Shown here one piece after another: positions 43,464 through 58,177 of a DNA stretch of 64,000 nt. The stretch is from Clostridium sp. 1001271st1 H5 (GTDB lineage: Bacteria > Bacillota > Clostridia > Lachnospirales > Lachnospiraceae). A program made the position numbers and the translations under genes. The stretch lies in NCBI RefSeq assembly GCF_005845215.1, contig NZ_SPHO01000016.1, forward strand, positions 62,001 through 126,000, read 5' to 3'. The first letter of the stretch is position 1; each line of letters starts with the position of its first letter. The notes under the pieces are model-generated. The model saw only the letters and a list, made by a program, of their open reading frames with translations. It had not been told where the DNA came from and made no database searches.

Positions 43464-44396
43464 CTACATAAACCGCCCGATATCCTGCTGCCAGTTCCTG
43501 TCCCTGTATTCAATCACAAGGTCCCGGAATGCCTCCGCAATCGGAGACAGGCGAATGTTCTTGCAGTATACCATGTAAAAGGTCCGTTTCTTCTCCAGGC
43601 CGTCTATCTTTAAATATTTAATCCGGTGGCTTTCTTCCTTTTCACCGGCAGCCATCCTGGAGAGAATGGATATTCCCAAGCCTCCGGCCACTGCCTGCTT
43701 AATGGCCTCAGTGCTGTTCATCCGGGCAATCACATCCACATTTTTAAACACAGGCACACCGTGGATTTCCGCCTTTTCCATCTCCTGCTTTGTGCCTGAG
43801 CCTTCCTCGCGCAGAATGAATGTCTCATGTTCAAAGTCCTGGAAGCTCACCGTACTTCCCTTTTTCCACCGTGCAAACTTTTCCGTGTCCGGCACAATCA
43901 GCACCAGCTCATCCATGAAAACCGGCTCATACACCAGACTGTTATGCATCTTATAGCCCGTGAGTCCAATCTCACCCTTCTGGCTCATAACATTGTCAAT
44001 CACCGTCTTGCTGTCCGACTGGTCCACATAAAACCGTATTTTCGGGCATTTGGCGTGAAACTCCCCTATGAGCCTTGGAAGATAATACTGTCCCGGAATA
44101 CTGGACGCATATACATCCAGAACACCATCCATTGCCTCGCACTGGGTCTGCACGGTTGCCAGTGCCTGGGACCGGGTATGGAGCATGTCGATGGCATAGG
44201 GATAAAACAGCTCGCCCTGCTTTGTCAGGGTTATCTCCCTTCCTGTACGGTTCACAAGGGTTGTTCCCAGCTCATTTTCCAGGTTATTGATATGAGCGCT
44301 GATGGTTGGCTGGGTCAGGAAGGTGGCATCTGCTGCTTTTGAAAAACTTTTGTACTTTACCGCATTTACGAATGCTTCTAATTGTCTGAATTCCAT
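43464..44396 (-). CDS. Selenium-metabolism-associated LysR-family regulator
   Basis: 310 residues. The N-terminal winged helix reads MEFRQLEAFVNAVKYKSFSKAADATFLTQPTISAHI (shown in part), followed by the two-lobed periplasmic-like effector domain (about 90-300). It starts 6 bases after the selB stop with AAGGTAGG as binding site, so it is co-transcribed with selA-selB. LysR proteins of this group recur beside sel and yedE genes. It likely controls the adjacent yedE supply operon through the box at 43411-43427; the effector may be a selenium compound (inference). Confidence 0.88.
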   Translation of the reverse strand: MEFRQLEAFVNAVKYKSFSKAADATFLTQPTISAHINNLENELGTTLVNRTGREITLTKQGELFYPYAIDMLHTRSQALATVQTQCEAMDGVLDVYASSIPGQYYLPRLIGEFHAKCPKIRFYVDQSDSKTVIDNVMSQKGEIGLTGYKMHNSLVYEPVFMDELVLIVPDTEKFARWKKGSTVSFQDFEHETFILREEGSGTKQEMEKAEIHGVPVFKNVDVIARMNSTEAIKQAVAGGLGISILSRMAAGEKEESHRIKYLKIDGLEKKRTFYMVYCKNIRLSPIAEAFRDLVIEYRDRNWQQDIGRFM

Positions 44397-44402
44397 AGCC
44401 GC

Positions 44403-46322
44403 CTACCTTGTCTTCTGGACAAGAATACGCACATCGTCCTGTTTCTTTGTTATCTTCTGCTGGTCGCAGTACTCCAGGAACAGAACGGCATACTTTCTGG
44501 AGGTTCCCAGCAAATCCCTGTAATCACCCAGGGAAATGGTAGGATGGCTCTCAAAGTATCCCCTAAGAAGTCCCATGGCTTTGTCCCAGTTGTCCTTATG
44601 AATCAGGGCGCCGGGATTTATCTTGACCAATGTGCCTTTCTTCACCAAATCATTCGCAATCTGTTTGGCCATCTTTTTGTCCTTGAATTTATTGATTACA
44701 TCGTCCGTGGCCGGTATCTCATATCCCGCCTTCAGGTATGTCTCCTCTATCTCCTTTAACATCCCCTTAAGCTCATGGGAATATTCAGCATTAAATCCAG
44801 CAGCTGCAATGGCGCTTGCCATGGTAACCGTGATGCTGCGCTTTATCATCTCATTTAAGAGGACGTCTGCTTTCCTGGACTCCCGAATCTTAAAATTATC
44901 CAATATACGGCTCTTAAATTCTTCCTTCTCCATACCATCGGAAATAGGATTCTCCTTATGGAACTGATTCAGAAGCTCGGTACCAAACTGTGTAATTTCA
45001 TTCCAGTAATCCTTATGGATAAAGCTTCCATCGCTGAGACGGATGGCCCTCTTTCCCTTGACCAGGACCTCCAGCTGCTCCTCTGTCTCCTGGTTGGTCC
45101 AGTTCAGCTTGGTAGCCAGTATCTTTGGAACAGGGAAGTACCGGCTCTCCTCTTTAAGCTCCAGCTCCAGTACCTCCAAATCAGTGCCCAGCTCCTTAAT
45201 ATGAAGGCTGTCAATGACCTCATCGTGGTTCCTCTTATGCTTTAAGGCCTCTGCCTCCAGCACAATGCCTCCGCCGAAGGTAATGGTGGGCGAATAGAAA
45301 CGGATGATGAACCTGTCATTCCTCCTTACGGCCACAGGCTCGTCGAAACGGAACTGCACATAGGCCTCCTCGCCCGCGGACAGCACGTCCTTGTCAAGCA
45401 GGACTGCCTTGCATATGGCCTGGGCCGATCCATAGTTGATGTGGACCCTGTCCCCGTTTCTCAGTTCCCTGTCCGTGGATGAAAACAGCTGCACCTTAGC
45501 ATCTATGAACTGGCTTTTCAGCAGGGAATCCTGGGCAGCCAGAACCTCTCCCCTGTTAATCTCATCCTTTTTAATGTTCACCAGGTTCAGGGCTGTTCTC
45601 TGCCCCGCATAGGCCATGTCCACCTTGTGGCCATGGGTCTGTATCTCCCTGATTTTAACTGTTTTTTCAGTGGGATACAATTCTACCTCCTGTCCTACCT
45701 GGCAGCAGCCCTCCAAAAGGGTGCCGGTAACAACCGTACCAAATCCTTCCATGGTAAATACACGGTCTATGGGAAGGCGGAACAGTTCCTTTTCCTGGCG
45801 CCTGGCGCCAGCCGCCCTTACCTTATCCACTATCATCTGCTTTAACTCATTGATATTTTTGCCGGTATAAGCAGATACCTGGATGCGGTCGGCCTTTTCC
45901 ATAAAGGTCCCCTTGACCAGGTTGTCCACATCGTCATTTACCAGCTCGGCCCAGTCCTCATCCACCAGGTCGGCCTTGGTAAACACCACAATGCCCTGCT
46001 TGATATGGAGCATCTTCAGAATCTCAAAGTGCTCCACGGTCTGGGGCATAACGCCCTCATCCAGGGCAACGACCAGAAGCACCAGGTCTATGCCGCCAAT
46101 ACCTGCCAGCATGTTCTTCACGAACTTCTCATGGCCCGGAACATCGATAATACCAATATGGATTCCGGCATCATTGGGCAGGTTGGCGAATCCCAGCTCT
46201 ATGGTGATTCCCCTTTTCTGCTCCTCCTTCAGTCTGTCCGTATCCGTCCCTGTAAGAGCCTTTATGAGACATGTCTTGCCGTGGTCCACATGACCGGCTG
46301 TTCCTACTATCACATTTTGCAT
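44403..46322 (-). CDS. selB: Selenocysteine-specific elongation factor SelB
   Basis: About 639 residues. The GTPase domain begins MQNVIVGTAGHVDHGKTCLIKALTGTDTDRL and has GITIELGFA (switch I), IIDVPGHEKFVKNML (G3) and FTKADL (G4). EF-Tu-like domains II-III follow, then four C-terminal winged helices (about 380-639) that bind the SECIS hairpin. The start at 46322 follows GAGGGGTG by 5 bases and lies 4 bases after the selA stop. It delivers Sec-tRNA to UGA codons such as those in grdA and grdB. Confidence 0.95.
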   Translation of the reverse strand: MQNVIVGTAGHVDHGKTCLIKALTGTDTDRLKEEQKRGITIELGFANLPNDAGIHIGIIDVPGHEKFVKNMLAGIGGIDLVLLVVALDEGVMPQTVEHFEILKMLHIKQGIVVFTKADLVDEDWAELVNDDVDNLVKGTFMEKADRIQVSAYTGKNINELKQMIVDKVRAAGARRQEKELFRLPIDRVFTMEGFGTVVTGTLLEGCCQVGQEVELYPTEKTVKIREIQTHGHKVDMAYAGQRTALNLVNIKKDEINRGEVLAAQDSLLKSQFIDAKVQLFSSTDRELRNGDRVHINYGSAQAICKAVLLDKDVLSAGEEAYVQFRFDEPVAVRRNDRFIIRFYSPTITFGGGIVLEAEALKHKRNHDEVIDSLHIKELGTDLEVLELELKEESRYFPVPKILATKLNWTNQETEEQLEVLVKGKRAIRLSDGSFIHKDYWNEITQFGTELLNQFHKENPISDGMEKEEFKSRILDNFKIRESRKADVLLNEMIKRSITVTMASAIAAAGFNAEYSHELKGMLKEIEETYLKAGYEIPATDDVINKFKDKKMAKQIANDLVKKGTLVKINPGALIHKDNWDKAMGLLRGYFESHPTISLGDYRDLLGTSRKYAVLFLEYCDQQKITKKQDDVRILVQKTR

Positions 46323-46326
46323 ATTA

Positions 46327-47739
46327 TCACCCCTCAACCTGTCTGCTGTCCATTGCCAAAAATGCTGCTACAATATATTCAAACTCATCTTCCCTGATGG
46401 TCCTCACATCCAGATATACCTGGTTATGGGTAATCCTGACAATAATCGGAATCTCTTCCTTGCGGAGAAGACGCTCAATCTTCTCCGGCGTCAGCGCTCT
46501 GCCCTGTATGGCCACCGCATATCCGTCCAGGAGCACGGTTGGCGCGGAGCCGCCTCCCACCTGGTCCTTGCACGCCTCTACCTCCACGGTAAAGTTATGG
46601 GTTGCCCCGCGGATGGCTTCGGCCAGGCGCTCTGCCTTGTCCTTAAGCTCTTTTGCCGGCGTGGTAATCATGTTCAGCACAGGGATGGTTTTTCTGGCCT
46701 GGCGGATATCCGAATACTCAAAGAAGGTGGCCTCCATAGCTGCCAGCGTCATCTTGTCCACCCGGAATGCCCTTGCCAGGGGGTGGGCCTTCATTTTATC
46801 AATGTACTCTTTCTTTCCTGCAATGATACCGCCCTGGGGTCCGCCTAACAGCTTGTCCCCGCTGAACAGAATCACGTCTATGCCGGTCTTTAAGGCATCC
46901 AGAACCGTGGGCTCGTCCACCCCATACTCTGTCAGGTCTGCCATAAGACCGCTTCCCATATCGTAGATAACCGGAAGATTTAATTTTTTACCCAGCTCCA
47001 CCATCTCAGGAAGTTCCACCTCCTGGGTGAATCCCAGTATCCTGTAGTTACTTGTGTGTACCTTCATCAGGGCGCCGGTCTCACCTTCGTGATAAGCGTT
47101 CAGATAATCCGATGGCTTTGTCTTGTTGGTGGTTCCCACATCCATCAGCTTGGCGCCGCTCTGTTCCATGATTTCCGGCACCCGGAAGGAACCGCCTATT
47201 TCCACCAGCTCTCCCCTGGATACAATGACTTCCTTGTCCTTTGCCAGAGCAGAGAGGCAGAGCATGGTTGCCGCCGCATTGTTGTTGACCACCATGGCTG
47301 CTTCCGCGCCCGTAATCTTGGTCAGAATTTTCTCCACATGGTCATGGCGGGAACCTCTGGACCCCCGCTTTACATCATATTCCAGGTTTGTATAGTTCCT
47401 GGCCACGTCCATGATGCTCTCGCAGGCCTTGTCCGACAGATTTGCCCTTCCCAGATTGGTGTGAAGCACCACTCCTGTTGCATTTATGACCCGACGCAGG
47501 CTCTTTTTCTTCTTGCCTGTGATGCGCGCCACAATTTCTGTCATCAGTGTTTCCTTTGTCCCCACCTGATTCCGTTTGCCTTCCAGGATGTCTTTTCTCA
47601 GCTCCTCAATGACTTCCCTCACTGAGTCAACAATCACTGACCTGGGCGTACTTTCCGTAAAAAAAAAGAGACGCTCATCCTGCAGCACCTCGTCTATTTT
47701 CGGAATCTTTCGGAGTAACTCTCTTCTATCTTCCATCAT
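46327..47739 (-). CDS. selA: L-seryl-tRNA(Sec) selenium transferase SelA
   Basis: 470 residues. It contains RRVINATGVVLHTNLGRANLSDKA, TNLEYDVKRGSRGSRHDHVE and the PLP Lys in ILFSGDKLLGGPQGGIIAGK, all SelA hallmarks. It converts Ser-tRNA(Sec) to Sec-tRNA(Sec) using selenophosphate. GGAGGT precedes the start. The tRNA gene lies immediately upstream in the same direction, so selC-selA-selB-lysR form one unit. selD, which makes selenophosphate, is not in the window. Confidence 0.96.
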   Translation of the reverse strand: MMEDRRELLRKIPKIDEVLQDERLFFFTESTPRSVIVDSVREVIEELRKDILEGKRNQVGTKETLMTEIVARITGKKKKSLRRVINATGVVLHTNLGRANLSDKACESIMDVARNYTNLEYDVKRGSRGSRHDHVEKILTKITGAEAAMVVNNNAAATMLCLSALAKDKEVIVSRGELVEIGGSFRVPEIMEQSGAKLMDVGTTNKTKPSDYLNAYHEGETGALMKVHTSNYRILGFTQEVELPEMVELGKKLNLPVIYDMGSGLMADLTEYGVDEPTVLDALKTGIDVILFSGDKLLGGPQGGIIAGKKEYIDKMKAHPLARAFRVDKMTLAAMEATFFEYSDIRQARKTIPVLNMITTPAKELKDKAERLAEAIRGATHNFTVEVEACKDQVGGGSAPTVLLDGYAVAIQGRALTPEKIERLLRKEEIPIIVRITHNQVYLDVRTIREDEFEYIVAAFLAMDSRQVEG

Positions 47740-47769: not shown

Positions 47770-47863
47770 CGGAGGAGGTGGGAATCGAACCCACCCAGAG
47801 GGCTCTTAACCCCCCACAACGGTTTTGAAGACCGCGAGGCACACCAGCAACCTATCTACCTCC
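47770..47863 (-). tRNA. selC: Selenocysteine tRNA (anticodon TCA)
   Basis: 94 bases without encoded CCA. The anticodon loop CTTCAAA gives anticodon TCA, decoded as UGA. There is an extended D-arm, a long variable arm (GGGGGGTTAAGAGCCCTC) and a T-arm GTGGG-TTCGATT-CCCAC, with G at the discriminator. The 5' acceptor strand is GGAGGTAG, but the 3' strand is CTCCTCC, one base short of CTACCTCC: an A opposite U6 appears to be missing, leaving a 7-bp stem with one bulge. It is placed directly upstream of selA. Confidence 0.93.
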
Positions 47864-48063: not shown

Positions 48064-49185
48064 TTAGCTGACGTATCCGGCGGCCTTCAGAATCTCATGG
48101 GCCTTATCCTTGTTGGCATCGGACATCAGTACGATGGGTCCTGTACAGCCCATGCCGCTCTCCGCATAGATGCCGGCCTTCCACAGTGCCTTAACAGCAT
48201 CCTCCAGGTCCATAACCTCGATACCCGGAATCTGTGAAGTAACCACTTCCTTAGGAGGCATCTTCACTTCCTCGGCTGCTGCGCCAGCATCCTTCTTGCC
48301 TGCAGACTTCAGCTCGTTGATGATATCCTTAAGTCCGGCCTTGTTAGCCTTCTCAAATTCTTCATCAGCAACCTTCTTCCAGTCATGGCGGACCAGGTTG
48401 GTGGCGAACTCCATGGCTCCTGCAATAACAGGCGCGCCGGAAGCACGTGATACAATCATGATGAGACGGTCATAACCCTCACCAATACCAGGGCCGTAAC
48501 CAAATCCAAGGGACTCGTAATTACCGCCTGTGGTGTAGGAGGAGAATACCTTCATCATCAGGTTGCCTGTAAGTGAATCCATAACCATGATATCAGGCGT
48601 TCCGCCTAACAGGTCGTTTCCTCTCATGACAATGCCGCCGTCAGCCCTTACGGACTCTGCGAAATGAATGTCATAGCCGTTCTCAGCCAGCTTGAGCAGA
48701 GCCTTCTCTGTCTGGCGTGCGCCGTCAATATTAGCAATGCCCACGGTTGGATTCTCCACGCCGTCAGCCTTTGCCGCAATAATTCCATAGATTGCATTCT
48801 TTACCATGCCGCTGATACGGTCTGTGTCGGACGTACCTGTGGTAGTTGCGATATACATTGGTTTTCCCTTGCCCGGGGTGATAACCTTTCCGACTGTGGA
48901 CACACCGATGGGGAATGGATAGTGCATGGTAACGGCGCCGTCAATCTCGCCGGAATCCAGCATCTCTTCCATTTTCTTATGAAGGTCTTCCCCCTCGATA
49001 AGGACAGCCTTAAGTCCCTTCATCTCGGCAATCTTCATGGCTTCTTCGATATTATCCTGGCCATGTTCGCTGCCTTCTGAGGCGAAGCCGATAACCGGCT
49101 TTTTGCCATATTGTCCTGTTTCAAGAGCATCGGCCACCTCAAGAAAAGTATTAGCAATCATAGCTTTTATTTTCTTATCAGACAT
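48064..49185 (-). CDS. grdD: Glycine reductase complex component C, GrdD
   Basis: 373 residues with a PlsX-like fold. Visible are KPVIGFASEGSEHGQDNIEEAMKIAE, AVTMHYPFPIGVSTVGKVITPGKGKPMYIATTTGTSDTDRISGM (part) and MGCTGPIVLMSDANKDKAHEIL. With GrdC it releases acetyl phosphate from the acetyl-selenoprotein A intermediate. AGGAAA precedes the start. It is the last gene of the grd operon, followed by the tRNA-Sec unit. Confidence 0.95.
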   Translation of the reverse strand: MSDKKIKAMIANTFLEVADALETGQYGKKPVIGFASEGSEHGQDNIEEAMKIAEMKGLKAVLIEGEDLHKKMEEMLDSGEIDGAVTMHYPFPIGVSTVGKVITPGKGKPMYIATTTGTSDTDRISGMVKNAIYGIIAAKADGVENPTVGIANIDGARQTEKALLKLAENGYDIHFAESVRADGGIVMRGNDLLGGTPDIMVMDSLTGNLMMKVFSSYTTGGNYESLGFGYGPGIGEGYDRLIMIVSRASGAPVIAGAMEFATNLVRHDWKKVADEEFEKANKAGLKDIINELKSAGKKDAGAAAEEVKMPPKEVVTSQIPGIEVMDLEDAVKALWKAGIYAESGMGCTGPIVLMSDANKDKAHEILKAAGYVS

Positions 49186-49212: not shown

Positions 49213-50769
49213 TTATTCCTCTTCGCCCATCAGACCCTCAGCAAACGCTCTCATGGCCTGGCCAATCATAGCCTTTACCTTGCTCTCATCCACGCCGCCG
49301 CTCTCTTCTGAAGCAGAACCGTCGTTGGCCTGAACCACGAAGGATACGCCGTCAAACAGATTGGTCATTCTTCCAAGGAATAAGCTTCCCTTACCGATAA
49401 TCATGGCGCGCTTTGTCTCGCCTGCCAGGATTTCATCTCTCAGAAGTCCCAGGTAAGGAACGCCTGAAGGAATATGTCCCTGGGTGGGAGCCCAGCCTGT
49501 CATACCATGTTCCTTAACGAAATCCGCAATCTCATTGCGCTGTAATTCGCCTCTCTTAACGCCCAGGGCAGCAATCATCTTGTAGTTTGCTTCCGGGACA
49601 TCGCCTGCGCCTGCCGGCTTGGTGATATCCGGGTTCTGCATCTCAGGAGAGTACTTGTCGATATCCACAATCTTTAAACCAGCCTCATCCAGAGGATTGG
49701 TTACCAGGGAGGAGATAACGTTCTGAGGAGCGGAACCTGTTCCAACGGTGTGGCGTCCAACGATATCAGTCCTAATCTGCGGGCTTACACCGTCGTCAGC
49801 GCTTACTAATACGGAGAAGCCAGCGATAGCGTCTTCCAGAATCGGAAGGCCCTTCTTCACATGGTCTTTGCCGTTCATGCCTAATTTAGCGGTACAGCCG
49901 CCGGCTGTAACCACAACGTTCTTAAATGTGCCGGATTTTACCAGGGCAGCTGCGTGAAGCATTGCATGAGCTGGTCCTGCACAGAAGCCTCTTACGTCAG
50001 ATCCGGTTGCGTTAACAAATCCTGCAACCTCAGCTGCAGCCTTTGCAAAGTTGCCGCCGCCTCTCTGGTTCATATCGCCGCATGCTTCCTCGCAGCAGTC
50101 AACTACATAATCTATATCAGCCGGATTAACTCCTGCCTTTTTTACCAAGTTAAGTAAGGATAATACGTTAGAAGCCTTTGTAACCAGGTTCTCTAACATA
50201 ACGTGTGCGGATAAGTTTACATCCACATCATGAGCTCTCTTAACAGCGCCAACCAGTACATTGTTATAGTACAGAGGCTCTGCATGCTCGTCATTTACCA
50301 GGGCAGCGATTTCTTCTTCTGTTGTCTCGCTGTTCTTATCAAGAACCGCTACATGCTCGTCTGTAAACATGTGATGAGCAGACAGCTTAGCCTTAACATC
50401 AGCTGCAAATCCCTTTTCCAGTTTAACCAAATCAAATACGTCACAAATCTGAATCAGACCGTAAAATTCATCTTCCGGCATGATTTCGCCGTACTTACCT
50501 TCTTTGCTGGCTCCCTCCATCAATTTATCATACCAGGGGAATCCAACCTCAGCCATCTTCTGTGGCTTTTCATTGCCAATATATACCTGGTTCGGCATAT
50601 AGTTAACGGCATCCTCAAAACTCCTCAAATGACTTGGAAGTTCCTTCAAATATTCTGACTCAGGATTAACAATCATCTCTGTTGTCTGTGTTGTACCATT
50701 GTGAATAACCATATCAGGTGTAACCGCCAATGTATAGCTGGCACCCTTTAAAACTGCATAACCGTTCAT
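49213..50769 (-). CDS. grdC: Glycine reductase complex component C, GrdC
   Basis: 518 residues with a ketoacyl-synthase III-like core. CCEEACGDMNQRGGGNFAKAAAE, GFCAGPAHAMLHAAALVKSGTFKNVVVTAGG (part) and GQGSLFLGRMTN-type C-terminal motifs are present. It accepts the carboxymethyl/acetyl group from selenoprotein A and, with GrdD, forms acetyl phosphate. GAGGTGAAGGA precedes the ATG. It is separated from grdA by a terminator and a mobile-element-like inverted repeat. Confidence 0.95.
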   Translation of the reverse strand: MNGYAVLKGASYTLAVTPDMVIHNGTTQTTEMIVNPESEYLKELPSHLRSFEDAVNYMPNQVYIGNEKPQKMAEVGFPWYDKLMEGASKEGKYGEIMPEDEFYGLIQICDVFDLVKLEKGFAADVKAKLSAHHMFTDEHVAVLDKNSETTEEEIAALVNDEHAEPLYYNNVLVGAVKRAHDVDVNLSAHVMLENLVTKASNVLSLLNLVKKAGVNPADIDYVVDCCEEACGDMNQRGGGNFAKAAAEVAGFVNATGSDVRGFCAGPAHAMLHAAALVKSGTFKNVVVTAGGCTAKLGMNGKDHVKKGLPILEDAIAGFSVLVSADDGVSPQIRTDIVGRHTVGTGSAPQNVISSLVTNPLDEAGLKIVDIDKYSPEMQNPDITKPAGAGDVPEANYKMIAALGVKRGELQRNEIADFVKEHGMTGWAPTQGHIPSGVPYLGLLRDEILAGETKRAMIIGKGSLFLGRMTNLFDGVSFVVQANDGSASEESGGVDESKVKAMIGQAMRAFAEGLMGEEE

Positions 50770-50979: not shown

Positions 50980-51453
50980 TTATAAATATTTGCAATACTG
51001 CTCTCTGATGGAAGACATCTCCTTAGCGATGTCATCAACGTCCATAACCATCTCCATCATACTAATCTGGTCGTCATAAACGCTGCTGTCAACCTCATCT
51101 TTGATTTCGTTCTCACAAACATGGAATACACTTAGTCCCAACTGGACTCCTGCTAGAGGACCTGCAAAAGTAGGATCGCCTGCTGTAACGGTTTCTGCAG
51201 CTAAACCAGCTGCCTCACCCTCTGCTGCTCCAAGAACAACTACAATGTTCTCAGCGCCGTACTGCTCAGCGAAATCTTTAACTCTCTTCTGATTTTCCAG
51301 ATCCATAGCACCAGCGGCCGTTCAGACGAAGCACTCAGTTGAAGAATATACAACTTCGGCGCCTGCGGTCTTTACGCATTCTTCTATGGCTGGTCCCGGA
51401 ATACCGTCACGGTCTCCGATGATGATGACTTTTTTGTCTTTCAAAATTGCCAT
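50980..51453 (-). CDS. grdA: Glycine reductase selenoprotein A (UGA-encoded Sec44)
   Basis: 157 residues when the in-frame TGA at 51322-51324 is read as selenocysteine. The sequence around it is SSTECFV[14 protein letters not shown], identical in layout to known GrdA with Sec44 next to Cys41. The start has AAGGAGG 9 bases upstream and begins [17 protein letters not shown]. GrdA carries the carboxymethyl group as a Se-ether between component B and component C and is re-reduced by thioredoxin. Its genes trxA and trxB lie just upstream. I see no unambiguous SECIS stem immediately after this UGA. Confidence 0.95.
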
Positions 51454-51581: not shown

Positions 51582-51899
51582 TTATAAGTTAGCCTCAATC
51601 ATAGCCTTGATGTTCTCAACAGTTGCATCGTCCTTAACGCACTCGGCAACCTTCTCGCCGCCCTTGTAGATAGCGATAACAGGAAGACCAAGAATCTTCT
51701 GTCCGATTGCCAGACGACGTGCCTTGGTGGTGTTTAAAGAGGTGAATTTAATCTTATCGCCGTAATCACCCTCCATAGCATGGATATGTGGCATAAGAGC
51801 CTGGCATGGTACACATCCATCACCGTAGAAGTCAACCAGTACTGTGCCTTCAGCCTTCAATACTTCTTCTTCAAAATTGTCCTTGGTTAAATCTACCAT
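51582..51899 (-). CDS. trxA: Glycine-reductase-associated thioredoxin
   Basis: 105 residues, thioredoxin fold. The active site is GCVPC (Cys29, Cys32) instead of the usual WCGPC, a change known for thioredoxins of glycine-reducing clostridia. VDFYGDGCVPCQALMPHIH and LGLPVIAIYKGGEKVAE are visible. It supplies electrons to oxidised selenoprotein A. GGAAGGT precedes the start. It lies between trxB and grdA. Confidence 0.93.
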   Translation of the reverse strand: MVDLTKDNFEEEVLKAEGTVLVDFYGDGCVPCQALMPHIHAMEGDYGDKIKFTSLNTTKARRLAIGQKILGLPVIAIYKGGEKVAECVKDDATVENIKAMIEANL

Positions 51900-51932: not shown

Positions 51933-52874
51933 TTATTTCTGCTCTGCCAGCCATCTCTCAACCTGCATGGAAGCGATTGCTCCGTCAGCAGCAGCAGTAA
52001 CAACCTGTCTTAAGCTCTTTACACGGATATCGCCAACTGCGTACACGCCTTCCACACTGGTATGCATGTCTTCGTCGGTCTTGATATATCCGCGGTCCAT
52101 CTCTAACTTGCCTTCGAACAGTTCGCTTCTTGGGTTGTATCCGATGAAGCCGAATACGCCGAACAGGCCGTCGTCCTCGTCTGCATCGATTCTTGTAAGC
52201 TCACCTGTCTTAACATTCTTAACAGTCATGCCGGAAAGGATGCCGTCTCCGTGAAGCTCTTCCACAACTGTATCCCACATGAAGAACAGCTTAGGATTCT
52301 TGAACGCGCGCTCCTGAATGGATTTTGCTGCACGCAGTTCATCACGGCGATGGATGACAGTAACTTTTCTTGCAAACTTAGTCAGGTACATGGCTTCCTC
52401 AACAGCAGAATCGCCGCCGCCAACCACGAATACTTCCAAATCCTCGAAGAAGGAAGCATCGCAGGTTGCACAGTAGGAAACGCCCTTGCCCATGAACTCG
52501 CCCTCGCCCTTGCAGCCGATTGGCCTTGGGAAAGCGCCGGTAGCGATAATCAGGGTACGTGCCTTATAAGTTCCGTTGCTGCCAACCAGTGTCTTTACCG
52601 GGCCTTCGATATCAACGCTGACAATGGTATCGCTGACACGCTCAGCACCGAACTTCTCGACCTGCTTGGTCATTCTTTCAATCAGGGAAGGACCGCTCTC
52701 GCCGTCTACCATCTGTCCGGGATAATTCTCAATCTCGTCCGTGATGGCAATCTGTCCGCCGTCTTTTCCTTTTTCAATGAGCAGCGTATCCAGACGCGCT
52801 CTTCCCGCATAGATTCCGGCTGCAAGTCCGCCAGGACCTGCACCCAGAATGATGACATCATAAATCTTGTCCAT
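51933..52874 (-). CDS. trxB: Thioredoxin reductase
   Basis: 313 residues. The FAD motif is IILGAGPGGLAAGIYAGRA, the redox pair is in CATCDASFF, the NAD(P)H motif is FVVGGGDSAVEEAMYL, and the C-terminal FAD motif is GVYAVGDIRVKSLRQVVTAAADGA (part). It reduces the adjacent thioredoxin. AAGGAGAT precedes the start. The 204-base gap from grdB holds a possible weak promoter (TTGCAT-16-TAAAAT near 52950) and nothing else recognised. Confidence 0.95.
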   Translation of the reverse strand: MDKIYDVIILGAGPGGLAAGIYAGRARLDTLLIEKGKDGGQIAITDEIENYPGQMVDGESGPSLIERMTKQVEKFGAERVSDTIVSVDIEGPVKTLVGSNGTYKARTLIIATGAFPRPIGCKGEGEFMGKGVSYCATCDASFFEDLEVFVVGGGDSAVEEAMYLTKFARKVTVIHRRDELRAAKSIQERAFKNPKLFFMWDTVVEELHGDGILSGMTVKNVKTGELTRIDADEDDGLFGVFGFIGYNPRSELFEGKLEMDRGYIKTDEDMHTSVEGVYAVGDIRVKSLRQVVTAAADGAIASMQVERWLAEQK

Positions 52875-53078: not shown

Positions 53079-54386
53079 TTACTCAAATACAGTCTGCTCT
53101 GTAACCGGGGTCTCCAGTGCTGTCAGAGCCTTAGTAAGTATTCTCCTTCTGATATCCTTCTCTTCTTCCAAGGTCAGAGCCGGATTTCCAAGAGGATGAG
53201 GAATAGCGATAGCAGGAACAATACGGTTAGCTCCTACTGTCAGTGAAATCGGAACTACAGTTGCAATATGAACTACAGGGATTCCTGCTCTTTCAATTTC
53301 TTTTACCATCGTTGCACCGCAACGTGTACAGGTACCTCAGGTAGAGGTCAGAATGACCGCATCTACCCCGTCATTCCTCAGCTCCTGTGCAAACTCTGCA
53401 GCAAATCTCTTGGAGTTAGCTACGGATGTACCGTTACCAACTGTCGTATAGAAATATCTGTGCAGGCTGCCGATTTTTCCTTCTTTTTCAAATTCTCTTA
53501 AAACGTCAACAGGAAGGACTCTGTCTGAATCTTCATTGGCATATACTGGGTCGTATCCGCCGTGAGCAGTCTCATATGTAGCTTCTGTCAGGTCCATGAC
53601 ACCATCGATGTCATATTTGCCGTACTTGGAAGCACTGGAGGACTCGATGTGGTCCGGGTTGCCCTTTGGTACGATACCGCCGGAGGTAACCAGAGCGATT
53701 TTTGCATGAGCCATATCCTTAACAGCCGGATTTGGTTCTACCCTGTCGAAGTCAGGCATTGGGAACTCGGTTGTGAATTCCTTGCCGGCCAGCTTCTTAA
53801 CCAGCATCTCAACAGCTCTCTGGGAGCCTCTCTTGTCCTCAAAGAAGTTGACACGGATGCCGTTCGGCATATAGCCCTCTTCCTTGGAGGAGCCAAGCTT
53901 CTCACCCTTGGCAAGCTTAAGTGCCAGAGGAGCCATGGTAGCAACAGCACTTCTCATGCCGGCTGCGCTGTTCTTTGTCTCAACGATATATACTTTTGTC
54001 TTGTACATATCAGCGCCCGGGTTCTCTTTGTACATACCAGTCAGGACCGGAAGGTTTAACTCTTCCTTAACTGCCAGTGCAACGGTACCGCAGGCAACGC
54101 CGTAACGTCCTGCATTGAATGCCGGTCCGCAGATAACTGCGTCTGGCTTCTGGCTGCTAATCATATCCAGAATGGTCTTCTTAGCAGCTTCAACGTTCTC
54201 GTTGAAGTAAGAGTCGCCGCAGATAACGGTAGCTACGATTTCTGCCTCTTCTCCGAATGCCTGGTTGAACGCCATACCAGGGCCTACAATGCCTTCTCTT
54301 AATTCTGGCTGGTAATCAGCCTTTTCCTCGCCGCCGATGTTAGCGAAGAACTGGTTAATATAATGAACAATTCTTAACTTTGACAT
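53079..54386 (-). CDS. grdB: Glycine reductase component B selenoprotein GrdB (UGA-encoded Sec350)
   Basis: 435 residues when TGA at 53337-53339 is read as selenocysteine. The 349 residues before it end in VILTST, and after it the frame continues GTCTRCGATMVKEIERAG, giving the redox motif Sec350-x2-Cys353-x2-Cys356 at the position known for GrdB. It activates glycine, held as a Schiff base on the GrdE pyruvoyl group, and attacks it with the selenol. GGAGGAT precedes the start. A hairpin suitable as SECIS follows the UGA. Confidence 0.96.
53310..53339 (-). promoter_or_regulatory. UGA-Sec codon and candidate bacterial SECIS in grdB
   Basis: After TGA (53337-53339) come 12 bases, then CGTTGC-GGT-GCAACG (53310-53324), a perfect 6-bp stem with a GGU loop. 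Bacterial SECIS elements have the hairpin shortly after UGA with a GU-containing apical loop, which this satisfies. SelB binding is inference. Confidence 0.65.
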
Positions 54387-54395
54387 CTTATCCTC

Positions 54396-55676
54396 CTATC
54401 TGGCACTTAATTTATTGAAGCCCATCTCGTTTGTTGCTCCTGTGATAACCTGAAGCTCAGCAACAATGGAACCGTCTTTCTGTAAGCTTCCGTCGAATCC
54501 GCCTGCAATGATATCAGCAACCTCAGGATAGCCGATAACTTTGTCCATTGCCGGTAAGTTGATGACCATGTTTGCGTTTCCGCCTGTAACAACAGCATTA
54601 GCGCTTGCATCTGCATCTGCCAAGGACTGGGAAGCGCCGTCGCGGCCTGCGTACTCATCGGTGATGATAACAGTCTTAACGCCTTTTCCTTCAATCTTCT
54701 TGCAGTTCATGATAAGGTCAGTATCAGGGTTACCGAAGCCCTCCTGGGAAACGATAGCGCCGTCAACGCCTAAGAACTCGCAAAGCTTGGATGTCCAGTC
54801 AGAAGAACGCATCTTGTCAGCAAGGTATACGTTCTCGTTGGTGATGATTACACCTACAAAGTTCAGGGTCTTTCCGTGCTGTTCAAATAAGTCTGCAATA
54901 ACAGGGTTATTAAGGTGATGATAGGTTGTATTCTTGTCGCATGCAGATACGCAGTTACCGCTTAAGATAGCGCCGTCCATTAATTCGGTTGGGTTTAAGA
55001 TAGTTGGTAAGGACTGCTTCATATCTACGCCGTATACATATGTATCATGCATCAGGCCCTGGCTCTGAAGCATCAGTACGTAAGCTACTCTTGGAAGCTC
55101 AGGATATTTCTCAATTCCCTCTTTTACGGAACAGGTCTCATATACTTTAACTTCATCAGGCTCTACGTCCTTGGCCAGCTTGCCGATGTAATCAGCAGCC
55201 TTCAGGCCTGCAAATCTGACAGCCTTCTCATGAGCATGCTTTGCAAGTCCGTCGATTGGCTCGCATACAACAACCAGGTTGTTTAACTGGGAGAATGGTG
55301 TGTACTTAGCTCCCTCGCCGCACATATCGATGATACCTTCCTGGAAGCCGACAATCTTACCTGTGGTAACAACTGCGGAACCCTTTAACACGTTGGTCCT
55401 TCCGCTTCCCACTGTCTCCACCTTGGAAATAACGCCTGGGAATAAGTTTCCACCTCCGTTGACTTTTACACGTGGCTCAATCACGTCCTTTACTGGCATG
55501 ATACGGACACTCTCTCCTGGTCTTGCAATCTCCAGCTCAACAGACTTCAGGTTTTCATCTTCCAACAAAAGTGCCTTCAACTCTTCTGCATTAACATAAA
55601 TAGTTCCGTTTTCCACTTTTGATTCCGATGCAAACTGAATGTCGTTAATCTGAACGCACCCCAACTCAAGTTTCAT
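54396..55676 (-). CDS. grdE: Glycine reductase component B proprotein GrdE
   Basis: 426 residues. The precursor is cleaved at Asn-Cys in SGNCVSACDKNTTYHH; Cys242 is expected to become the pyruvoyl group that binds glycine. The N-terminal MKLELGCVQINDIQF and C-terminal GATNEMGFNKLSAR match GrdE. AAGGAGGAG precedes the start. It pairs with GrdB, encoded 9 bases downstream. Substrate type glycine (rather than sarcosine or betaine) is inferred from the GrdE/GrdB pairing with trx genes and grdX. Confidence 0.95.
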   Translation of the reverse strand: MKLELGCVQINDIQFASESKVENGTIYVNAEELKALLLEDENLKSVELEIARPGESVRIMPVKDVIEPRVKVNGGGNLFPGVISKVETVGSGRTNVLKGSAVVTTGKIVGFQEGIIDMCGEGAKYTPFSQLNNLVVVCEPIDGLAKHAHEKAVRFAGLKAADYIGKLAKDVEPDEVKVYETCSVKEGIEKYPELPRVAYVLMLQSQGLMHDTYVYGVDMKQSLPTILNPTELMDGAILSGNCVSACDKNTTYHHLNNPVIADLFEQHGKTLNFVGVIITNENVYLADKMRSSDWTSKLCEFLGVDGAIVSQEGFGNPDTDLIMNCKKIEGKGVKTVIITDEYAGRDGASQSLADADASANAVVTGGNANMVINLPAMDKVIGYPEVADIIAGGFDGSLQKDGSIVAELQVITGATNEMGFNKLSAR

Positions 55677-55680
55677 CTAA

Positions 55681-56076
55681 TCACTCCTCCTTGTATATTA
55701 TTTTTTTTACAGCTCCTTCAATCAATGATAAATCCACGTCCCTGAAGTCTTCCAGTATATTTTCCGGCCAATCAGGAGTTCTTCTGTCCTTCATGAATTT
55801 CTCGCAGGACTGAATACTGTTCTCCATCACCATCTCAAACTGGTAAAATTCTTCTCTTTCAACCTCAGAGTCGGAAATTATGATTGTCTTGTAAGGAATC
55901 TGGTTAGGCTTCAGGCTCCCTGCCATAGGATGGGTTTCCAGGCGATAACCTTTATGTATATAGTTTCTCACCCTGATTAACACATCAATGTAGGAACCAT
56001 TTTCCAGGAAGTCCACTTTTAATTTGTCCTGATACTTGTCCCTGCACTTCACGTTGTTTGTAACTACGATGTACAT
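55681..56076 (-). CDS. grdX: GrdX, first gene of the glycine reductase operon
   Basis: 131 residues. The MYIVVTNNVKCRDKY start and the TIIISDSEVEREEFYQFEMV segment are typical of GrdX, a small protein of unknown role always encoded at the head of grd operons. It is soluble, without membrane segments. AAAGGGTG precedes the start. It is preceded by a sigma-54 promoter and a divergently transcribed activator gene. Confidence 0.93.
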   Translation of the reverse strand: MYIVVTNNVKCRDKYQDKLKVDFLENGSYIDVLIRVRNYIHKGYRLETHPMAGSLKPNQIPYKTIIISDSEVEREEFYQFEMVMENSIQSCEKFMKDRRTPDWPENILEDFRDVDLSLIEGAVKKIIYKEE

Positions 56077-56140
56077 GATGTTTCACCCTTTGAATCTTTC
56101 TTATTTATTAGGCATAGGATTCCATTCCACATAATAATAG

Positions 56141-56156
56141 AGCAATTATCGTGCCA
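56141..56156 (-). promoter_or_regulatory. Sigma-54 promoter of the grd operon
   Basis: On the minus strand, TGGCAC-GATAA-TTGCT (-24 element 56151-56156, -12 element 56141-56145), a full match to the TGGCAC-N5-TTGC(A/T) consensus. The predicted start is near 56130, leaving a leader of about 55 bases to grdX. No sigma-70 promoter is visible for grdX. The A+T-rich upstream gap could carry enhancer sites; a candidate is the ACTAT/ATAGT dyad near 56313-56330. Confidence 0.85.
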
Positions 56157-56321
56157 ACTTTTTCTAAAGTGGGATTTTTTTTTATTTTTTACCTTTTAAC
56201 CAATGGAAATTCATTTTTTCTATTGCTTTTCCGTCCTTTATAGGTTTTCTATATTGTCTATTTTGTCATTCTTTTAACTTCTGACTTTTTTAAAATTTCT
56301 TTTTTTCGTGAACTATTTTTC

Positions 56322-56350
56322 TTGATAGTGAAATAAATTTCAGTTATAAT
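56322..56350 (+). promoter_or_regulatory. Promoter of the sigma-54 activator gene
   Basis: TTGATA (56322-56327), a 17-base spacer and TATAAT (56345-56350). The spacer holds a perfect dyad TGAAAT-AA-ATTTCA (56329-56342), a likely repressor or autoregulatory site. The leader is about 125 bases and very A+T-rich. Confidence 0.75.
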
Positions 56351-56481
56351 AGGGGGTAGGGAGGGATTCTTTTTATTTTTGGCATCCATTTTTCCCTTCT
56401 TTTACAATTTTCATGTTAATTTTTTCTCAATTTTATGCATAATTAATAAAATTTAAAAATCTAACCACAGGAGACCCGATT

Positions 56482-57504
56482 ATGGACGAAAACGATATGA
56501 AAAAAAAGTTTTTTTTCAACACAAAATCCCCTGCCTACCGGAGGGCATTGGAAGACTGTGAACGTGTGGCAGCATCCAATGTAAACGTCCTCCTCATCGG
56601 TGAATCCGGTTCCGGCAAGGATGTGGCTGCCCAGTACATCCATGCCTGCAGCCGCCGTTCCGACATGCCGCTCATAGCAGTCAACTGTAATGCCTACACG
56701 GAGTCCCTTCTGGAGGCAGAGCTGTTCGGCCATGAGCAGGGCGCATTTACAGGCGCCATCAAGGGGCGGGCCGGAAAGTTTGAGCTGGCGGATAAAGGCA
56801 CCCTGTTCTTAGACGAGGTGGGCGACATCAACCTGACCACCCAGGTAAAGCTGCTGCGGGCCATTGAGACAAAGAGAATTGAACGAATCGGCGGCAACAA
56901 CAGCAAACAGCTGGATTTCCGGCTCATTACAGCCACCAACCGCGACCTGGTAGCCAAGGTGCGCAACAGCACCTTCCGGGAGGACTTCTTTTACCGTATC
57001 AGTACCATTGTCATCCGCATCCCCGCCCTCAAGGAAAGGAAGGAGGACCTGGTGGACATGATTCACTTCTTCCTGGAGGAATCCCAGAGAGTGAATCAAA
57101 TCAGAATCGACCGCATTGACGAGAAAGCCTGGGACTTCCTTATTAACTATGATTATCCGGGCAATATCAGGGAACTGAGAAACCATGTGGACAGAATGGT
57201 GGTTCTTTCCAAGAACCATGTCATTACCACGGAAGGCATCCCGATTCTCTATAACCTGAAGACAACAGATGATGACACTCCATCCAGCTCCTTCACCCAG
57301 GCCGGCATTGTGCCCTGGCGCGAATTTAAACGGCGCAGTGAAAAAGAGTATCTGCAGTGGGTCCTGAACCAGATGGGATGGAACATATCAGCTACCGCCT
57401 ACAAGCTGGGCATCAGCGCCAGGCAGCTGTTTAATAAGATTAATGAATATAATCTGGAGAATCCCCAGACCGGAAGGCCTCAGAAGCCGGTGCACAGTAT
57501 CTGA
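56482..57504 (+). CDS. Sigma-54-dependent activator without a sensor domain
   Basis: 340 residues. The AAA+ domain starts almost at the N terminus: Walker A GESGSGKD (40-47), the sigma-54 contact loop GAFTGA (87-92), Walker B TLFLDE (107-112) and the arginine-finger region [10 protein letters not shown]. The C terminus has a Fis-type helix-turn-helix ([19 protein letters not shown]). There is no receiver, PAS or ACT domain, so activity must be set by expression or a partner protein. AGGAG precedes the start. It is divergent from grdX and is the probable activator of the grd operon. Codons 7-12 contain A8 and T8 runs. Confidence 0.92.
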
Positions 57505-57530
57505 GGCCGCGATATTACACAAAAACAAAG

Positions 57531-57566
57531 TGCTGTGAAAGCAAAATACAGTTGGCTTTCACAGCA
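57531..57566. terminator. Bidirectional terminator
   Basis: TGCTGTGAAAGC and GCTTTCACAGCA form a perfect 12-bp stem with a 12-base loop. On the minus strand it is followed by CTTTGTTTTTG; on the plus strand by TCTCTTCT. It separates the activator gene from the convergent kinase gene. Confidence 0.8.
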
Positions 57567-57580
57567 TCTCTTCTATAAAT

Positions 57581-58177
57581 CTAACGTCCTTCCCCGCAAA
57601 TCCTCACAATCTCCTGGATGATTTCCCTGAGGCAATCCTCCAGCACCACATTTTCATACTGCTTTGTAATGCTGCACTGCTCCAGATGGCTGGGGCTGAA
57701 ATCCTCCTCATCTGCCAGAAAACGCCTGCACATCTCTTTATACTTGGGCATTGTCTGCTGCTCCTCCCGCTCCAGGGCCCGCCTCAGCCTCAGTCCGTCC
57801 TCTACATGGATATAGATTGGTACAAGGGCTTCCTTTCCATAATAGGAACGCATCTTCTCATAAGATTCCAATGTCCCCATAATCAGATAATTTCCTGTTT
57901 CCAAATCAATCTGCCCATCGTCCGCTGTAAAATAGCTCCATGGACCGTAAACCGTGTCATAGGTCCGGCACTCAATCAAAATCCCATCCTGCCTGCACTG
58001 TTCCAGATAAGAACGGTCCACAAAAAAATACTCCACTCCGTTTTGTTCCCCGTCCCGTATGGGTCTGGTGGTATACATGGTAACGGTCTTAAGCTCCGGC
58101 ATCCTGCTGTGAAGCTTCTTATATATGGTATCCTTTCCCGAGGCACTCTTGCCCATAACATAAAATATCTTTCCCAT
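57581..58177 (-). CDS. Guanylate kinase-like protein
   Basis: 198 residues. P-loop GKSASGKDTIYKKL near the N terminus, and the GMP-binding stretch TMYTTRPIRDGEQNGVEYFFVD. YSYF-type and lid residues are less canonical than in the housekeeping enzyme, so it may be a paralogue. GGAGT precedes the start. It is encoded downstream of the decarboxylase gene in the same direction. Confidence 0.8.
   Translation of the reverse strand: MGKIFYVMGKSASGKDTIYKKLHSRMPELKTVTMYTTRPIRDGEQNGVEYFFVDRSYLEQCRQDGILIECRTYDTVYGPWSYFTADDGQIDLETGNYLIMGTLESYEKMRSYYGKEALVPIYIHVEDGLRLRRALEREEQQTMPKYKEMCRRFLADEEDFSPSHLEQCSITKQYENVVLEDCLREIIQEIVRICGEGR

Follow-up and report, generated by a model that had tools for sequence, protein, structure and literature searches.

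The glycine reductase (grd) operon of the window, by which we mean the whole 64,000-nucleotide stretch of DNA analysed, is probably switched on from a sigma-54 (-24/-12) promoter at 56157-56141 by a divergently encoded activator without a sensor domain, which would bind a tandem dyad and repress its own synthesis. Sigma-54 control of grd by such a bare activator had been put forward in an initial annotation of this DNA, and comparison with related genomes favours it: promoter, tandem dyad and activator motifs occur together in all nine genomes with an intact ortholog of the activator, and the promoter is absent from all seven with an altered one. The proposal that the level of the activator is itself the signal fared less well and is set aside below.

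Gene content of the operon

The genes downstream of the promoter (Table 1) include the glycine reductase operon set of grdE, grdB (with selenocysteine), grdA, grdC and grdD. With its TGA read through, the window grdB passes the glycine-reductase equivalog (737.8 against a cut-off of 602.2) and lies below the cut-off of the sarcosine model (732.5 against 800). At the corresponding site in a sister genus, that of genome G057, grdB and grdE pass the sarcosine models (831.1 against 800 and 869.4 against 780, respectively), this grdB also being above the broader glycine cut-off (631.8). It appears that one regulatory module serves two targets, sarcosine reductase in the genus of G057 and the core glycine reductase operon in that of the window.

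Rfam at the gathering score gave no riboswitch in the window or in the loci L082 and L080. In another locus, L108, a single T-box leader lies well away from grd. The window's own genome includes further grd-type loci (L084, L085 and L086, on C18, C74 and C66) with three more GrdX-model matches, one of them below cut-off; these loci have neither the tandem dyad nor a -24/-12 site near grdX.

Table 1. Features of the grd region, in positions of the window
Feature	Position	Strand	Basis
LysR-type regulator associated with selenium metabolism	43464..44396	-	NF040786
selB	44403..46337	-	PF09107, PF25461 and others
selA	46327..47739	-	TIGR00474
tRNA-Sec	47771..47863	-	RF01852
grdD	48064..49185	-	NF040747
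grdC	49213..50769	-	NF040746
grdA, part after its TGA	50980..51306	-	PF04723, NF040748
Thioredoxin, trxA	51582..51899	-	PF00085
Thioredoxin-reductase-like gene, trxB by position	51933..52874	-	PF07992; conserved in related loci
grdB, selenoprotein, TGA = Sec at residue 350	53079..54386	-	Models and read-through
SECIS element just after grdB TGA	53299..53336	-	RF01990
grdE, component B proprotein	54396..55676	-	PF09338
grdX	55681..56076	-	NF038093 (NCBIfam GrdX), 143 bits, cut-off 40
Sigma-54 (-24/-12) promoter of grd operon, TTGGCACGATAATTGCT	56141..56157	-	Consensus fit, matrix score and genome count
Tandem dyad GAA-N6-TTC-N8-GAA-N6-TTC, probable activator site (UAS)	56310..56341		Pattern and comparison; centre 176.5 bp from promoter centre
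Sigma-70-type promoter of activator gene, TTGATA-N17-TATAAT, 11 of 12	56322..56350	+	Best site in 55600-57700
Sensor-less sigma-54 activator: AAA+ with GAFTGA, lid, Fis-type HTH; 340 aa	56482..57504	+	Pfam and motifs

The sigma-54 promoter upstream of grdX

The sequence TTGGCACGATAATTGCT on the minus strand upstream of grdX (56157-56141) matches YTGGCACGRNNNTTGCW, which we take to be the full sigma-54 promoter consensus, and has GG at -24, GC at -12 and 10 bp between them. The full consensus occurs at four sites in the 6.52-Mb, 75-contig genome and its reversed pattern at none; each of the other three sites lies at most 8 kb from a Sigma54_activat match on the same contig. On a matrix built from 27 distinct C. 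difficile SigL promoters (Table 4 of PMC7438776; training scores 19.1-26.7 bits), the grd promoter scores 24.7 bits against 9.3 for the runner-up in the 64-kb window, in agreement with the full sigma-54 promoter of the initial annotation. Transcription of grdX would be expected to start near 56131, with a leader of about 55 nt to the ATG at 56076.

It is extremely improbable that the match arose by chance and that grdX depends on some sigma-70 promoter that escaped notice. When one mismatch is tolerated, a 15-letter pattern turns up 5.85 times on average in shuffles and twice in the window itself, which leaves the exact, full match as the only informative one; under a looser sigma-70 rule, the five best matches also include two weak ones (8 of 12) whose ends lie 238 and 269 bp upstream of grdX. 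Against a chance origin, the exact match is far above background and, at the threshold of the tool, no sigma-70 site toward grdX ends less than 353 bp upstream of the gene. The earlier remark that no sigma-70 promoter is visible for grdX holds at this threshold within 350 bp.

A sensor-less activator and its candidate site

Divergent from grdX lies the gene of an AAA+ protein with Pfam matches to Sigma54_activat (residues 14-178), AAA_lid_14 (184-258) and HTH_8 (286-323), the Fis-type HTH (PF02954) scoring 34.9 bits against a cut-off of 22. Pfam detects no domain before residue 14, as expected of the activator with GAFTGA and no N-terminal sensor that had been described. GAFTGA, LFLDE, Walker A, Walker B with the catalytic DE and the arginine-finger region are all present, and we assume the customary roles for the Walker, catalytic DE and arginine-finger motifs. 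The protein is a sensor-less (PspF-like, type Ic) EBP, and simple circuits built on a bare AAA+-Fis protein are of a known kind. Among solved chains ZraR and NifA are the closest by sequence, with PspF further down. A close named locus is found in [Clostridium] clostridioforme AGR2157, a species placed in Enterocloster (Lachnospiraceae), where the activator is 98% identical to that of the window. The AGR2157 locus (L033:11042-12604) also carries an AbgT-type transporter gene between the activator and a guanylate-kinase-like gene, absent from the window.

The window's genome has a sigma-54 factor gene and 14 Sigma54_activat matches above 130 bits including the activator, whose open frame is the shortest of them (353 codons against at least 424 for the other 13). 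As these 13 are EBP-like, the promoter might be used and yet be activated by one of them, a possibility we consider very improbable given the divergent position of the sensor-less activator and the way in which presence or absence of the promoter tracks the integrity of this particular protein.

The probable site of the activator is the tandem dyad, whose N8 holds the -35 element, TTGATA (56322-56327), of the activator gene. The initial annotation had placed a dyad in the spacer of that promoter; the dyad exists (TGAAATAAATTTCA, 56329-56342) and turns out to be the second half of a tandem pair. The window has a single copy of the full pattern; 100 shuffles gave no copy at all, and of 20,000 first-order resamples of the intergenic region one contained it. 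In the alignment of the window clade, in which 56 of 407 columns vary, both elements are invariant in all four genomes; for the promoter this is unremarkable taken alone, and because 21% of 17-column stretches are likewise invariant against 1.6% of 32-column stretches, invariance in the clade favours the UAS more than the promoter. Across 24 whole genomes the UAS pattern occurs 0-4 times each, at 34 places in total, and its reversed form at 10. Five genomes in which no activator was found have one copy each, so that the pattern alone is neither specific nor proof. Around UAS matches away from grd (11 of 20 matches), no -24/-12 site above 8 bits was found within 250 bp.

More telling is the placement of the UAS in the sister genus. 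There, the same tandem dyad with the same N8 lies beside the grd genes, at 144-156 bp from their -24/-12 promoter. No tandem pair was seen ahead of the activator gene, and in the three loci that include both, 6-8 kb separate the dyad from that gene. This distance argues that the UAS is not simply the operator of the activator gene, and the placement, together with the nine of nine intact genomes, that the tandem pair goes with the sigma-54 promoter. The sister-genus promoters carry a G in place of the consensus C/T and score 12.2-17.1 bits, compared with one match above 12 bits in 153 kb of reversed sequence as matrix control.

Alternatively, the tandem dyad might belong to a different regulator, for example ArgR, that acts on the activator gene, the activator itself binding elsewhere. 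The ARG box and its two-turn tandem spacing resemble the dyad, which in the window clade and in a clade of altered orthologs marked by GIFSDT sits on the activator's own sigma-70-like promoter. We consider this decidedly unlikely, since sister-genus loci have the dyad ahead of the grd promoter, and none was seen ahead of the activator gene; the dyad follows the sigma-54 promoter and not that of the activator. The ARG-box reading was dropped for the same reason, and we regard the dyad as the probable binding site of the activator. A second candidate site by eye, TATAGR-N3-YCTATA near 56241-56255, is AT-rich and has no clear sister-genus counterpart by eye.

A model for the circuit

These features suggest a model in which the activator, expressed from a sigma-70 promoter of its own, occupies the tandem dyad, reaches the -24/-12 promoter by looping over about 176 bp and opens sigma-54 polymerase with ATP and its GAFTGA loops, as would be expected from its family. 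Because the UAS embraces the -35 of the activator's own promoter, the same binding would cover this element, and from the overlap we predict negative autoregulation, in which the activator represses its own synthesis. With no sensor domain and a self-limited activator level, the physiological signal would have to enter elsewhere, through a partner protein, in the way that PspA acts on PspF, through ATP/ADP, through the supply of sigma-54 or through a second regulator.

Activator concentration as the signal, with some other factor tuning the level via the dyad and grd output following, was the earlier interpretation. The lack of a sensor domain is in its favour. Against it, the dyad most plausibly serves the activator itself as a tandem site across its own -35 element, an arrangement that would steady the level and make it self-limiting, and we therefore judge this interpretation unlikely.

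Intact and altered orthologs

Orthologs of the activator were taken at E <= 1e-75, the window's own genome being counted. They occur in 5 of 250 genomes of the family (9 of 397 in a larger, overlapping draw), in 4 of 17 genomes of the window's own genus and in 5 of 6 in the genus of G057. The 16 genomes compared amount to about four lineages, two intact and two altered, and their counts are not independent, so the contrast between the two sets is strong in kind and not in number. A search of other grd loci for the same promoter and activator, as the initial annotation had suggested, returned the promoter with all nine intact activators and with none of the seven altered ones.

The intact set (G000, which is the window's own genome with the window on contig C7, and G252, G253, G260, G057, G616, G618, G620 and G617) has GAFTGA in four genomes and GSFTGA in five, with LFLDE, and the UAS stands 144-178 bp from the -24/-12 site in every one (9/9 for both elements). 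The G260 gene has one A fewer than the window in a run near its start, placing the ATG used here out of frame with the core; the genome was counted as intact, its core being intact. G617 and G620 were picked up by the UAS pattern with no prior knowledge, and in both the UAS and promoter lie on a contig other than that of the activator. The G620 promoter leads into grdE with no grdX in between. In G617, grdX (L104:384-800) is interrupted by an in-frame stop; the UAS and promoter are found on a different short contig (L123), 2 kb long and ending short of the grd side. As the UAS and promoter persist in these two genomes without an intervening grdX or with a stopped one, GrdX is probably not an obligatory partner there. 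The two G617 contigs share a 26-base stretch, which by eye suggests a mobile element between promoter and grdX.

A wider survey of grdX began from 34 GrdX matches, of which two had no locus and one (L009) was unplaced; of the 31 placed, L063 had no upstream sequence, leaving 30 regions with at least 300 bp. The UAS is found in four of these and a promoter above 10 bits in two, all in activator-bearing genomes, and the best promoter score among the remaining regions is 6.7 bits.

The altered orthologs have lost GAFTGA and the Walker B glutamate. Six genomes have the GIFSDT/LFLDA form, GIFSDT occurring in at least four other genera, and G117 has the further decayed TSLHGA/LFLEEAF. No promoter is found by the grd genes in any of the seven, and the UAS is kept in six; a single 14.1-bit match in L083 is inside a LysR gene about 12 kb from grdX. 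The HTH of these proteins is alike by alignment, and three pairs give dN of 0.068-0.084 and dS of 1.25-1.80 (dN/dS about 0.04-0.06; a fourth pair is saturated in dS), values that indicate purifying selection and not decay. With protein and site kept in a sister lineage, the sigma-54 loop and Walker B residue lost and no -24/-12 promoter at the operon, we infer that the altered activator should act without sigma-54 there. A sigma-70-like site by grd is clear in G117 only (TTGCTT-N17-TATAAT), those in the scanned regions of the GIFSDT clade (G228, G645, G647 and G019, whose region lacked its last bases) being weak or none. At the G117 locus (L081:4755-6218), a sodium:alanine-type symporter gene with a good sigma-70-like promoter heads grdE-grdB, next to the most altered activator.

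Sigma-54 itself is retained: among the seven altered genomes, rpoN is present in all four that were examined (G228, G019, G117 and the record of L038), and was found in all activator-bearing genomes examined for it. In three genomes of the intact set a full-length sigma-54 factor gene directly adjoins the sensor-less activator in divergent orientation (L080:6103-7434 in G057, L105:10318-11667 in G618 and L106:1155-2519 in G620), an arrangement that might point to a dedicated sigma factor. The rpoN neighbour in G617 is short, without a match to the core-binding domain, G616 has none among the listed ORFs, and G057 has a second rpoN elsewhere in its genome. A single sigma-54 copy in each of 57 genomes is reported by Nie et al. 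(PMC6615313).

Just upstream of grdX in the altered clade, near the ribosome-binding site, a conserved dyad, GTTGAAACAGG-N5/6-CCTGTATCAATA, occurs in L082, L083, L107, L108, L109 and L036, its version in G647 having CAGA/TCTG in place of CAGG/CCTG. This dyad is possibly an eroded -24/-12 promoter, or else an RNA hairpin. Six altered regions score 27-37 against the G616 promoter core and 26-36 against that of G057, compared with a maximum of 25 against either for 26 control regions upstream of other grdX genes, five of which come from activator-holding genomes. Between 0 and 23 of 1000 shuffled altered regions reach the score for G616, and 0-33 of 1000 for G057. With the window promoter as reference, the altered regions (16-22) do not exceed the controls, which reach 22; with the G618, G617 and G620 promoters they are only partly better than shuffles. 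Taken together, these scores are only suggestive of an eroded promoter in the altered clade.

Origin of the module

Outside the sensor-less proteins, an order-level draw of 392 genomes gave matches of 45-46% in four others, all of them full response regulators (Response_reg, AAA+ and HTH_8); ahead of each one stands a sensor kinase that carries a solute-binding domain. In the tree the sensor-less proteins form one clade (support 99/97), which the response regulators join next with lower support (90/89 and 93/96), the root not being fixed. An origin of the activator by loss of the receiver domain is plausible on this topology. The nearest outgroup EBPs (L087, L088 and L089, from G502, G401 and G479) are response regulators whose genes follow those of large sensor kinases carrying solute-binding domains, and a sigma-54 site of 17-24 bits is found close to them; L088 has a gene of the Na+/H+ antiporter family in the next position.

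We give an even chance to a broader reading in which bare EBP, tandem UAS and -24/-12 promoter constitute a transferable module, probably derived from response-regulator EBPs, that passed between sarcosine and glycine reductase and at least twice turned into a form independent of sigma-54, keeping the protein and, in one lineage, the site, while losing the ATPase glutamate, the loop and the promoter. If this is true, the circuit has been caught before and after leaving sigma-54.

Comparison with known systems

Glycine reductase is a main Stickland energy route of gut Clostridia. In the titles, abstract openings and some passages that were covered, most subscription journals being outside, no published sigma-54 control of a core grd operon was found. 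The elements that appear new here are the tandem UAS, its overlap with the activator -35 and an ortholog split that matches presence or absence of the promoter. The tandem site offers a defined target for binding tests, and the intact and altered sister lineages a natural pair for how an EBP may leave sigma-54.

The window activator resembles PspF-type proteins in its AAA+ core with GAFTGA, its Fis-type HTH, its lack of an N-terminal sensor and a site over its own promoter, through which PspF autorepresses. It differs from PspF proper in lying below the pspF equivalog cut-offs (247.6 against 443.55 and 225 against 529 bits), and from the PspF type in its predicted target, glycine reductase, and in its nearest sampled relatives outside the clade, which are response-regulator EBPs. 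Sigma-54 activators without a regulatory domain form type Ic in Francke et al. 2011 (PMC3162934), and EBPs without an N-terminal domain make up 11 of 490 clostridial ones in Nie et al. 2019 (PMC6615313).

Among Stickland reductases, PrdR, the proline reductase activator of Clostridia, likewise works with sigma-54 and is the best NCBIfam match of the window activator at 311 bits. Its cut-off of 795 is far from reached and only model positions 272-577 are matched, the N-terminal part being missing in the activator. The SigL promoters of C. difficile include those of prd, had, ord and the sarcosine reductase CD1740-41, the last with SarR/SarS (PMC7438776), and Nie et al. tie SarR to grdGF, the word "glycine" being absent from their main text (PMC6615313). 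The SarR/SarS system (PMC7438776, PMC6615313) is like the present one in joining a sigma-54 promoter and an EBP to a grd-type reductase, and the sister-genus module appears to serve genes above the sarcosine cut-offs. Unlike SarR, which belongs to a two-component system, the window activator has no receiver domain, and its target would be the core glycine reductase operon. The altered orthologs, and not the window protein, can be likened to the TyrR-like sigma-54-independent EBPs of PMC3162934 in having lost GAFTGA and the Walker B glutamate while the DNA-binding domain is kept and the protein conserved.

A contrast is also seen with C. difficile grd itself, which is reported not to have a -24/-12 promoter driving its transcription and to rise 8- to 60-fold without SigL (PMC7438776); Rex is reported to repress grdE there (PMC9450991). 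If sigma-54 is the direct activator of grd in the window genome, as predicted, gut anaerobes would have opposite wiring for one and the same pathway.
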